From: Streptococcus sp. 1643
Lineage (GTDB): Bacteria > Bacillota > Bacilli > Lactobacillales > Streptococcaceae
Length of the DNA: 64,000 bases
Direction of reading: 5' to 3'
Assembly (NCBI RefSeq): GCF_006228325.1
Contig: NZ_CP040231.1
Span: 693,001-757,000, forward strand
This document shows positions 13,836-41,227 of this stretch, piece after piece. The notes below the pieces were generated by a model, which saw only the letters and a program-made list of their open reading frames with translations, had not been told where the DNA came from and searched no databases. A program made the position numbers and the translations under genes. Every line of letters begins with the position of its first letter. Position 1 is the stretch's first letter.

Positions 13836-13935
13836 ATAAAAGTTGAGAAAAGCAGAAGTGAGAGCTTCTCGCCTTGTGACATCAAGTTGCCTGGCCCTAC
13901 GGATGAAAAGTTTCTAAGAAACGCTATCATAACGT

Positions 13936-13973
13936 GCGGGCTTGTATCATTACGAGTCCGCTATTGTTTTTCT
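13936..13973 (+). promoter_or_regulatory. Leader terminator/attenuator upstream of infC
   Basis: GCGGGCTTGTA pairs with TACGAGTCCGC (11 pairs, two wobble) around TCAT, followed within a few bases by a T run. It lies inside the infC leader, 27 bases before the start codon. Firmicute infC-rpmI-rplT operons are autoregulated through the leader (L20), which this hairpin would suit. Confidence 0.65.
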
Positions 13974-13999
13974 CTAATAATAAAAAAGAGGTGAAAACC

Positions 14000-39148: not shown

Positions 39149-39958
39149 ATGACATTTTTAGATAAAATCAATGAAACAGCTGCCTTCCTGAAAGACAAGG
39201 GAATCCTAGCGCCTGAGTTCGGTCTAATCCTTGGATCAGGACTTGGAGAATTGGCAGAAGAAATCGAAAATCCAGTTGTAGTAGACTATGCAGACATTCC
39301 AAACTGGGGCCGCTCTACAGTAGTTGGGCACGCTGGTAAATTGGTATATGGTGAACTTGCAGGGCGCAAGGTCTTGGCTCTTCAAGGACGCTTCCATTTC
39401 TACGAAGGCAATCCTCTTGAAGTCGTGACTTTCCCAGTACGTGTAATGAAAGTACTCGGATGTGAAGGTGTCATTGTAACCAATGCAGCTGGAGGTATTG
39501 GATTTGGTCCTGGTACCTTGATGGCTATCTCAGACCATATCAATATGACGGGGCAAAACCCATTGATGGGTGAAAACTTGGATGATTTTGGTCCACGTTT
39601 CCCAGATATGTCTAAAGCCTACACACCAGAATACCGTGCTACTGCTCATGAAGTGGCTAAAAAACTCGGTATCAAGCTTGATGAAGGTGTATATATCGGT
39701 GTAACCGGTCCGACTTATGAAACACCTGCAGAGATTCGTGCCTATAAGACATTGGGAGCAGATGCAGTTGGTATGTCCACTGTTCCTGAAGTGATTGTGG
39801 CAGCCCACTCAGGCTTGAAAGTTCTCGGTATTTCATGTATTACTAACCATGCTGCAGGATTCCAAGAAGAACTCAACCACGAGGAAGTTGTAGAAGTGAC
39901 TGAACGTGTCAAAGGTGATTTCAAAGGCTTGCTTAAAGCGATTCTTGCTGAATTGTAA
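39149..39958 (+). CDS. punA: Purine nucleoside phosphorylase (trimeric type)
   Basis: 269 residues. L-G-S-G-L-G near residue 31, G-R-F-H-F-Y-E-G-N, N-A-A-G-G-I, G-P-T-Y-E-T-P-A-E and the purine-site E/N region are present. Phosphorolysis of guanosine and inosine to base plus ribose-1-P. AAAGGAG before the start. No terminator is evident before the structured non-coding array, so transcription may run on into deoD. Confidence 0.95.
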   Translation: MTFLDKINETAAFLKDKGILAPEFGLILGSGLGELAEEIENPVVVDYADIPNWGRSTVVGHAGKLVYGELAGRKVLALQGRFHFYEGNPLEVVTFPVRVMKVLGCEGVIVTNAAGGIGFGPGTLMAISDHINMTGQNPLMGENLDDFGPRFPDMSKAYTPEYRATAHEVAKKLGIKLDEGVYIGVTGPTYETPAEIRAYKTLGADAVGMSTVPEVIVAAHSGLKVLGISCITNHAAGFQEELNHEEVVEVTERVKGDFKGLLKAILAEL

Positions 39959-39971
39959 TCAATACTTATTA

Positions 39972-40080
39972 TAGAAAGGTAGAGTGAAGTGTTCTGATTT
40001 GAACACGAGCGGAAAACTTTTCTAAAAAAATTGAAAGCTAGGTAGTTTGGGTTTAAATTGAGCCCGTGCTGTTCACCTAT
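39972..40080 (+). promoter_or_regulatory. Structured RNA-like module 1 of 4 (partial)
   Basis: Opens with GAAAGG, then hairpin GTGTTC/GAACAC (39989-40006) and GAGCGGAAAACT (40007-40018), as in module 4. GTGAA (39984-39988) can pair with TTCAC (40072-40076), and GGGTTT with GAGCCC (40039-40055). The second long helix found in modules 3 and 4 has no good partner here, so this copy may be degenerate. No open frame of note. Confidence 0.5.
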
Positions 40081-40097
40081 TTGTCATCAAAATTAAG

Positions 40098-40218
40098 AAA
40101 GAAAGGAATTGAACCCACCCTAAAAGCAGTGGGAAAAAGACAGTTGGTCTAGTGAGCATCGCACACTGCACCCAACTCCAATTTTCCCTTCGCTTTTTGA
40201 CGGGTTTGGTATCTTTCT
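40098..40218 (+). promoter_or_regulatory. Structured RNA-like module 2 of 4
   Basis: Closed by AGAAAG (40098-40103) with CTTTCT (40213-40218) and GAACCC with GGGTTT. A hairpin CCAC/GTGG follows, then GGGAAAA (40131-40137) pairs with TTTTCCC (40182-40188) and GTTGG (40143-40147) with CCAAC (40172-40176), capped by AGTG/CACT. Same overall plan as modules 3 and 4 with different sequence. Confidence 0.55.
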
Positions 40219-40235
40219 AAATATCAAATATAAAT

Positions 40236-40367
40236 TAAAGAAAGGATGGGCTCCTTGTATTCGCTGAACTGAATACGGGCGGAGAACTGTGTAAAAAAGA
40301 TAAACTGTCTAGCATCTGCGATGCGTCGTCAGTTTCCTATTTTTACTTTGTTCTCTGTAGCTATCCT
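40236..40367 (+). promoter_or_regulatory. Structured RNA-like module 3 of 4
   Basis: AGGAT/ATCCT closing pair, hairpin GTATTC/GAATAC (40257-40276), then GGGCGGAGAACT. GAGAAC (40282-40287) pairs with GTTCTC (40350-40355), GTAAAAA (40291-40297) with TTTTTAC (40340-40346), AAACTG (40302-40307) with CAGTTT (40330-40335), and GCATC with GATGC caps the stem. An almost continuous long hairpin after a short one. Confidence 0.65.
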
Positions 40368-40377
40368 AAATATACAA

Positions 40378-40507
40378 AAAGAAAGGTAGAGCGAAGTGTT
40401 CTAATTTGAACACGAGCGGAAAACTCGGAAAATAGATAATCTGACTGAGAAATCAGGATTTCTCGTCAAATTCCTAATTTTCAGTCGTTTTCTTCTCGCT
40501 CTTTGTA
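40378..40507 (+). promoter_or_regulatory. Structured RNA-like module 4 of 4, adjoining deoD
   Basis: AGAGCGA (40388-40394) pairs with TCGCTCT (40496-40502). Hairpin GTGTTC/GAACAC (40396-40413), then GAGCGGAAAACT. GAAAAC (40419-40424) pairs with GTTTTC (40487-40492), GAAAAT (40428-40433) with ATTTTC (40477-40482), and GAGAAAT with ATTTCTC (40447-40464) plus TGAC/GTCA forms the cap. Its last helix ends about 14 bases before the deoD start. Confidence 0.65.
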
Positions 40508-40516
40508 TCATAAACT

Positions 40517-41227
40517 ATGTCTATCCATATTGCTGCTCAGCAAGGTGAAATTGCTGATAAAATTCTTCTTCCTGGGGATCCTCTTCGTGCGAAATTTATT
40601 GCGGAAAACTTCCTTGAAGATGCTGTTTGTTTTAACGAAGTGCGTAACATGTTTGGCTACACTGGTACTTACAAGGGCCACCGTGTATCTGTCATGGGAA
40701 CTGGGATGGGGATGCCATCCATTTCGATTTACGCGCGTGAGTTGATTGTGGACTACGGTGTAAAGAAATTGATCCGTGTGGGAACTGCGGGTTCGTTAAA
40801 CAAGGATGTTCATGTCCGTGAATTGGTTTTGGCGCAAGCAGCTGCAACCAATTCAAACATCATCCGTAACGACTGGCCACAGTATGATTTTCCACAAATT
40901 GCAAGTTTTGACTTGCTAGACAAGGCCTACCATATCGCCAAAGATCTTGGTATGACCACCCACGTTGGGAACGTCTTGTCATCAGATGTCTTTTACTCAA
41001 ACTACTTTGAAAAGAACATCGAACTTGGTAAATGGGGAGTTAAGGCTGTGGAAATGGAAGCAGCAGCTCTTTACTATCTTGCTGCCCAACACCACGTTGA
41101 TGCACTTGCTATCATGACCATTTCTGATAGCTTGGTCAATCCAGATGAAGACACTACGGCAGAAGAACGCCAAAATACCTTCACTGATATGATGAAGGTT
41201 GGTTTGGAAACCTTGATTGCAGAGTAA
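40517..41227 (+). CDS. deoD: Purine nucleoside phosphorylase DeoD (hexameric type)
   Basis: 236 residues. Starts [14 protein letters not shown], with [17 protein letters not shown] and V-E-M-E-A-A-A-L-Y, and the catalytic aspartate region T-I-S-D-S-L. Phosphorolysis of purine (deoxy)nucleosides including adenosine. No ribosome binding site is visible before the ATG. Instead a structured array precedes it, and a TATCAT at 40506-40511 could place a start site at the ATG. Confidence 0.95.

Follow-up and report, generated by a model that had tools for sequence, protein, structure and literature searches.

We think it likely that the gene-free stretch between punA and deoD in Streptococcus sp. 1643 is a local pile-up of a dispersed hairpin repeat of the Lactobacillales, which is seemingly uncharacterised, and that the copy at its end forms a split ribosome-binding site for deoD. 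In Streptococcus, many copies of this repeat lie exactly between a gene's Shine-Dalgarno (SD) sequence and its AUG. The hairpin would fold out in the mRNA on a basal helix (GAACN with N'GUAUC) plus GAGC with GCUC, and this would bring GAAAGG and the AUG, which are 130 nt apart at deoD, within normal ribosome-binding distance. Ribosomes would then bind GAAAGG and initiate at the AUG across the fold. At deoD, only the last unit (40380-40509) would act as a bridge, and the preceding units have no start codon. If this is correct, then essential genes of a much-studied genus begin to be translated across a hairpin some 120 nt long, and predictors of gene starts and SD sequences would misread these genes as having no ribosome-binding site. 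Positions are those of the window, which is the whole stretch of 64,000 nucleotides that we analyzed (contig NZ_CP040231.1, positions 693,001 to 757,000, forward strand).

The array between punA and deoD

The gap between the two genes is 558 bases long (39959-40516) and no listed open reading frame of at least 60 amino acids lies wholly within it, as the first-pass annotation of this DNA had stated. That annotation, which was made from the sequence alone, divided the gap into four units that each open with GAAAGG. There are indeed four GAAAGG starts (39974, 40101, 40240, and 40381), and the four stretches fold more stably than dinucleotide shuffles (z of -3.5, -5.2, -5.3, and -3.9, with 0 of 200 shuffles equalling each); for the whole array region, z was -6.0 and 0 of 100 shuffles were as good. 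But only units 2-4 are full. Our covariance model (R1, see below) gave unit 1 an E value of just 0.38, and its first 46 nt (at the 5' end) are 96% identical to unit 4. Unit 1 looks like two truncated 5' arms, not a full module. A short form like unit 1a was found again in other strains, and remnants that resemble unit 1b are present before deoD in relatives. The features are:

39149..39958, + strand: punA, purine-nucleoside phosphorylase, the upstream gene (NCBIfam NF006054/TIGR01700)
39972..40026, + strand: unit 1a, a truncated copy with the 5' arm only (GAAAGG, H1 hairpin, GAGCGGAAAACT); 96% identity to unit 4 over 46 nt
40033..40095, + strand: unit 1b, probably a second truncated remnant (GAAAG..GAGCCCGTGCTG), judged from its sequence
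40096..40222, + strand: unit 2, full hairpin repeat of type C, with no H1 arm (R1 89.7 bits, E = 2.6e-17)
40239..40374, + strand: unit 3, full hairpin repeat of type B (R1 81.7 bits, E = 1.6e-15)
40380..40518, + strand: unit 4, full hairpin repeat of type A, flush with deoD (R1 136.6 bits, E = 5.6e-28)
40380..40386, + strand: AGAAAGG, SD-like, located 5' of the hairpin in unit 4; the site that we propose for ribosome binding at deoD (from the SD counts at flush copies)
40396..40413, + strand: H1, optional hairpin GTGTTC..GAACAC, alternative partner of GAAC (from the fold)
40408..40412, + strand: 5' strand of P0, GAACA; its partner is TGTATC at 40504-40509, with a bulged A (helix 1 of A4)
40414..40418, + strand: 5' strand of P1, GAGCG; its partner is CGCTC at 40497-40501 (helix 2 of A4)
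40434..40437, + strand: AGAT strand of the conserved 4x4 internal loop (A3 columns and motif scan)
40473..40476, + strand: CCTA strand of the conserved 4x4 internal loop (A3 columns and motif scan)
40504..40509, + strand: 3' strand of P0, TGTATC, the base of the hairpin, 7 nt before the AUG (sequence and helix 1 of A4)
40517..41227, + strand: deoD, DeoD-type purine-nucleoside phosphorylase, the downstream gene (NCBIfam NF004489/TIGR00107)

Several details of the first description change. A purine-rich segment was thought to open a second long hairpin within each unit; what is conserved is instead a single long hairpin that runs from GAAC to GTATC and has an internal loop of AGAT and CCTA. The end of the last unit was placed about 14 bases before deoD, but its hairpin extends to 40509, which leaves 7 nt to the ATG at 40517, and the R1 match of unit 4 extends into the start codon. 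The start of deoD was said to have no ribosome-binding site. There is no local one, but the site that we propose is on the other side of the last hairpin, at 40380-40386. Judging by its sequence, the leader of deoD has the layout of a split site, and the last unit probably matters for the expression of deoD.

At 40109-40123 in unit 2, and in similar short-form units, a TTG lies 2 nt past GAAAGG and begins a tiny frame (TTG AAC CCA CCC TAA) that ends within the unit, which is probably a coincidence. Elsewhere in the window, the ribosomal protein L20 leader (13844-13975, + strand) is the sole match to Rfam at the gathering score.

A dispersed family of hairpins

When we compared unit 1 to its own genome with BLAST, unit 4 was the one clear match, and it was the covariance model that revealed the family. 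An alignment of 20 units (A2) had 21 of 29 pairs changed on both sides according to RNAalifold, and R1 was built from an alignment of 19 units (A3). In the window's own genome, R1 finds 24 copies at E < 1e-3, including units 2-4. Matches are present in 56 of 58 Streptococcus genomes, with from 1 to at least 56 matches per genome, and named loci from S. sanguinis (L054 and L082) and S. pneumoniae (L045 and L083) have units. Across the order, 43 of 148 genomes have matches, and 23 of these are outside Streptococcus, in ten other genera. The family is abundant and its internal loop is conserved. Matches are weaker outside Streptococcus, where the order-wide search gave 1 to 21 of them per genome, and when we searched five of these genomes, from four genera, more closely, we found tandem arrays with a period of 121-122 nt and the same core. 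With up to 2 mismatches, a short pattern taken from units 1 and 4 is found at deoD and other genes in 80 of 118 Streptococcus genomes, with occasional matches in the reversed control as well. When we searched across the phylum with a core model, in 398 genomes from 266 genera, it matched only two Streptococcus genomes; just the best 11 candidates per genome were scored, so this says little about absence. For the alignment of cores, we used 24 sequences less L044 and L070, which were chance hits, and L211:1299-1389, which left 21. The GC content of 119 matches is 31-48%.

Most copies lie between co-directional genes, and both orientations occur. We classified 185 copies from Streptococcus, many of them at deoD, as 166 sense, 14 antisense, 5 divergent, and 0 convergent, and 51 copies from other genera as 27 sense, 19 antisense, 3 divergent, and 2 convergent; of the 250 copies, 7 within reading frames and 7 edge cases were left unclassified. 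Loci from the window's own genome were 11 sense and 4 antisense, and those from three other genomes (G014, G022, and G001) were 18 sense, 6 antisense, and 2 divergent. These gene contexts are approximate, as they come from a greedy caller of the longest reading frames and many loci were chosen at deoD. Sites without a copy were seen only in diverged genomes that are too different for the junctions to be read.

We also considered an origin from a phage or plasmid. The array had no match among 72,556 plasmid and 50,697 phage records, whether in the main search or with megablast, and two arrays from other genera had no match in plasmids, so we rejected this origin.

The first-pass annotation did not recognise this scatter over the whole genome. 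It read the units as a cis-acting array that is specific to deoD, as the end of read-through from punA, or as a set of small RNAs. In favour of a link to deoD, a unit lies flush before deoD in all 80 of the best 80 DeoD loci, and 63 of these have at least two units when counted by a regular expression. But matching copies are dispersed: they lie before dnaJ, parC, carB, prmA, and other genes, with solo copies before genes other than deoD and antisense copies elsewhere, and therefore neither a deoD-specific array nor a set of small RNAs is supported. Furthermore, in several streptococci deoD is preceded by a plain SD and has no array. Terminator-like sites are absent from the array of the window, and promoter-like sites within it are not above chance. 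Dispersal largely refutes this reading, and we give it almost no weight. A search with a covariance model had been suggested in the same annotation, with the remark that copies at unrelated sites would speak against its view; the search found a covarying, structured family, and it also found copies at unrelated sites.

Structure and covariation of the hairpin

The core of type A can be written as GAACN-C-GAGCG-GAAAGC-TCG-GAAAA-AGAT-stem-CCTA-TTTTC-AGTC-GCTTTC-..-CGCTC-TT-N'GTATC, and the other types differ from it in the second loop. We chose 80 sources, and in their 119 matches, of which 109 are distinct, 96.1% of cells were paired. Among the 109 distinct matches, 27 of 33 pairs changed on both sides and the covariation score was 0.614, versus 0.178 for shuffled alignments and 0.065-0.132 for slid registers; this alignment was fitted to the model, so it leans towards the model's structure. 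In A4, 96.2% of the cells of helix 1 (P0) are paired and its last pair covaries, while all four of the modelled pairs of helix 2 (P1) change on both sides. Both helices are at the base of the hairpin, so there is conserved paired structure between the SD and the AUG.

We also scanned for A[AG]A[TC] and CC[TA]A with complementary arms. There were 387 matches in the loci versus 4 in reversed sequence. Among the 250 unique matches, which include at least 2 chance matches, AGAT is present in 243 and CCTA in 248; in a looser scan, AGAG, TCTA, and TCTG were seen as variants of the internal loop. We considered whether AGATA of this loop could form a pseudoknot with the TATC at the 3' end, and we ruled it out because TATC is constant in A3 where AGATA varies.

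The H1 hairpin is absent from 4 of the 19 units in A3. Where it forms, the predicted fold often leaves out P0, so that two basal folds compete. The dispersed family and its covarying hairpin are both established here, and the units are structured, recurrent, and outside Rfam.

Copies that are flush with start codons

In Streptococcus, many copies end a few nucleotides before an AUG, including those at deoD, dnaJ, parC, alaS, prfA, carB, and purB. All 89 of the flush copies that we counted have a match of 7-9 nt to the SD consensus (of the GAAAGG type) just 5' of the hairpin, and none of the 89 has an SD of at least 4 nt between the hairpin and the AUG. The 89 copies correspond to 20 distinct N-termini and are dominated by orthologues (48 deoD and 15 dnaJ). 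This count left out 22 copies with an over-long call of the reading frame, and 4 copies whose start is 19-53 nt after CCTA are in neither group. Of the 22, 21 are at deoD; in these, an ATG is present in frame at the right position and the SD pattern is the same. The spacing from SD to AUG has a median of 129 nt (106 leaders).

In loci from four genomes, a 7-nt match to the SD was found upstream of 19 of 19 flush copies versus 5 of 24 non-flush copies, and 3 of those 5 are inside deoD arrays. (The genomes other than the window's own were covered via 30 of their 78 matches.)

We scanned 13 of the flush proteins, and 12 received NCBIfam names: alaS, purB, pyruvate dehydrogenase E1 beta, prmA, parC, dihydrolipoyl dehydrogenase, proS, prfA, uvrA, dnaJ, deoD, and carB. 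(The match for uvrA, from 500 residues only, was below the cut-off.) Among these 13, the protein after L186 had no NCBIfam name. These are heterogeneous housekeeping genes and we found no shared pathway among them, which bears on whether the units are regulatory RNAs. A riboswitch, thermosensor, or protein-binding leader could sense its signal through competition between H1 and P0/P1, as H1 and P0 both need GAAC and are mutually exclusive in the long-form units, and the conserved internal loops could bind a ligand. Yet alaS, proS, prfA, parC, carB, purB, uvrA, prmA, dnaJ, deoD, and the pyruvate-dehydrogenase genes have no pathway in common. Also, some units have no H1, some copies are antisense, orthologues in other streptococci lack the element, and there was no match to Rfam. 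We consider a family of regulatory RNAs to be very unlikely.

As for how a split site would be closed, the predicted unpaired distance from SD to AUG after folding has a median of 14 nt, versus 12 nt in shuffled inserts. This does not discriminate, because shuffled inserts of such length also close up. In the short-form units at parC, P0 as predicted from the sequence would leave 4 nt before the stem and 2-4 nt after it. At the proS leader of L244, the distant SD is AAAGGAGGT and the base of the hairpin holds ACCTCC, which could mask it. Downstream of dnaJ in L126 (4554-4655, + strand) there is a sub-threshold match to the Streptococcus sRNA SSRC8_2 (37.1 bits; the gathering score is 72).

Orthologous leaders with and without the hairpin

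To compare orthologues, we used 64 leaders from Streptococcus: 19 for dnaJ, 20 for deoD, and 25 for parC. For dnaJ and deoD, we selected 20 genomes by hand because they had either few copies or many, and one dnaJ locus (L279) with a short flank was left out; for parC, we used the 25 Streptococcus loci of 40 matched genomes. A distant GAAAGG with no local SD of 4 nt is present in 37 of the 64 leaders. In another 21, the SD is local and a distant GAAAGG is absent; none of these 21 has the core hairpin. Both SDs are present in three leaders (L311, L312, and L319), where the local match is just GAAA, and by the rule that we used three others have neither (L283, L296, and L326). Across orthologues, the distant SD and the local SD are nearly mutually exclusive. 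For instance, parC of L324 has a plain SD with 10 matching nucleotides.

Sixteen leaders have the distant GAAAGG but no core that is recognised by our scan: seven are long and diverged, and nine are short, with an insert of 38-92 nt. In 12 of the 16, the fold was equalled by at most 1 of 200 shuffles (5 of 9 for the short inserts). The folds of the other four are weaker or unexceptional, with 15 (L280), 4 (L317), 101 (L322), and 46 (L323) of the shuffles being as stable. In the parC leader of L318, the core is lost and the basal stems are kept; both L317 and L318 keep P1 and H1. L323 has a 4-bp stem between GAAAGG and the AUG, and parC of L325 and deoD of L288 and L294 have different hairpins in the same place. 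Hairpins that persist after the core is lost are what we would predict from selection for bringing GAAAGG to the AUG.

Different units at the same gene

In the best 80 DeoD loci, the unit adjacent to deoD belongs to type A at 38 loci, to type B at 21, to type C at 13, and to type D at 8. Since the type varies among strains, cassettes of different sequence occupy one place. The number of units per locus, as counted by a regular expression and including truncated units, ranges from 1 (17 loci) to 7 (1 locus). The internal units have GAAAGG and no AUG, and they are likely to be relics or tandem copies. We considered that their 3' ends might mask GAAAGG and so set them apart from the flush units, but this was not supported, as the flush units have the higher score (mean 5.25 versus 4.61); the internal units score slightly above swapped 3' ends (mean 4.40, with 4.51 as the highest of 100 swaps) but the flush units do not.

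In L022, from 2730 onwards, there is a chimeric unit with the 5' arm of type A and the core of type B, which suggests recombination inside units. In L132 (1536-2819), and also in L136, a gene for a ClC-type chloride channel lies between punA and deoD (NCBIfam NF002505; the match is weak, below the cut-off, and for L132 only).

Is the hairpin maintained as DNA or as RNA?

In structured RNAs, G-U pairs are usually about ten times more common than here. Among 2,364 helix cells from Streptococcus, we found 17 G-T and 11 A-C; the scan itself requires Watson-Crick pairs, so only the ratio is unbiased. With less biased sampling, in which one helix was used for detection and another was counted, there were 20 G-T and 12 A-C among 2,010 cells. 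G-U is more common in the apical helix (helix 5), and in A6 one pair of helix 2 is U-G in 6 of 21 rows, with that helix out of register for some types. Because G-T pairs are hardly more common than A-C mismatches, these counts suggest that the core is kept as a DNA hairpin or is corrected by template switching. The scarcity of G-U is unusual for an element that acts as RNA, and it is a point against the split site.

It could be that the repeat is purely a selfish or structural hairpin at the DNA level, such as a MITE-like element or a site of single-strand recombination, so that the copies next to an AUG are tolerated and the distant GAAAGG is unused. Besides the pairing counts, this would fit the occurrence of both orientations (14 of 185 copies are antisense in Streptococcus and 19 of 51 in other genera) and the tandem arrays with a 121-122 nt period in other genera. 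But it does not explain why flush copies have a distant SD and no local SD while most other copies have no distant SD, or why hairpins persist once the core is lost. Nor was there a match for the array among the plasmid and phage records. We consider it improbable that the repeat is only this.

A more far-reaching possibility is that there are two kinds of copies. Across the Lactobacillales, a plain hairpin would be kept as DNA, and in Streptococcus it would have been domesticated as a portable cassette (AGAAAGG, the hairpin, and a GTATC-A/T-rich spacer) that replaces the local SD of many housekeeping genes, with types being swapped at the same gene, as with the four types before deoD in the 80 loci. 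We offer this combination tentatively, as a possibility that we would not bet on.

Comparison with known systems

No Rfam family matches the units. A comparison of the window's array to Rfam 15 gave nothing at the gathering score, with five sub-threshold matches at E of at least 2, and in eight related loci no family covers a unit at E < 0.1. This agrees with the initial impression that the units did not match known RNA families. Among titles and the openings of abstracts, in a collection that mostly does not extend to subscription papers, we found no description of the repeat or its context. The family seems to be undescribed so far. The genome of S. mitis B6 was reported with 103 BOX and 3 RUP elements as its intergenic repeat units (PMC2828477). 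In the passages that we consulted, the annotation of S. pneumoniae D39V lists 127 BOX, 106 RUP, and 29 SPRITE elements and nothing like the present family (PMC6212727), yet the S. pneumoniae loci L045 and L083 carry it.

Like SPRITE, BOX, and RUP of the pneumococcus, this is a small dispersed hairpin repeat between genes of streptococci. SPRITE is described as an 18-bp duplex with a U-rich tract and about 28% GC, and as enriched between convergent genes (PMC3049150). Unlike SPRITE, the present family has a GC content of 31-48%, with 0 of 185 Streptococcus copies between convergent genes and 0 terminator-like sites in the array. SPRITE, BOX, and RUP are also described as nearly absent outside S. 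pneumoniae and S. mitis and as absent from S. sanguinis (PMC3049150), whereas our family is in 56 of 58 Streptococcus genomes, S. sanguinis included; we distinguish them by these descriptions and not by sequence models. Efa-1 of Enterococcus faecalis is 163 nt long and is a pair of adjacent stem-loops (PMC2267715). It is likewise a family of intergenic stem-loop repeats in a genome from the Lactobacillales; going by this description, it differs in its length and in its paired stem-loops, and we separate it only provisionally from the arrays found here.

Integron attC sites, the ends of IS200/IS605 elements, and REP/RAYT elements are imperfect hairpins with conserved unpaired bases, and some occur in arrays. 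Our repeat resembles these sites of recombination by single-stranded DNA hairpins in its shape and in its arrays; beyond that, it is not known to resemble their motifs.

For the arrangement at start codons, the comparable cases that we can name are at single genes: E. coli thrS, and genes 25 and 38 of phage T4. In thrS, the ribosome-binding site is bipartite and its parts are separated by a hairpin, as we propose here, but thrS is a single regulated gene and not a repeat family. In T4, a hairpin in the mRNA shortens the spacing from SD to AUG from 27 to 11 nt (gene 25) or from 22 to 5 nt (gene 38), and mutations that destabilize the hairpin lower initiation (PMC3014915). As in these phage genes, the SD and the AUG are too far apart in the sequence and a hairpin lies between them, which in our case would bring them together. 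The T4 pattern of an SD of normal strength far upstream, with none near the AUG, is found in 89 of 89 flush copies, in 21 of the 22 that were left out of that count, and in 37 of the 64 orthologous leaders. Unlike the T4 cases, which involve 22 and 27 nt at single genes, the median spacing here is 129 nt, and the hairpins belong to a dispersed repeat family with conserved internal loops that lies before many unrelated chromosomal genes.
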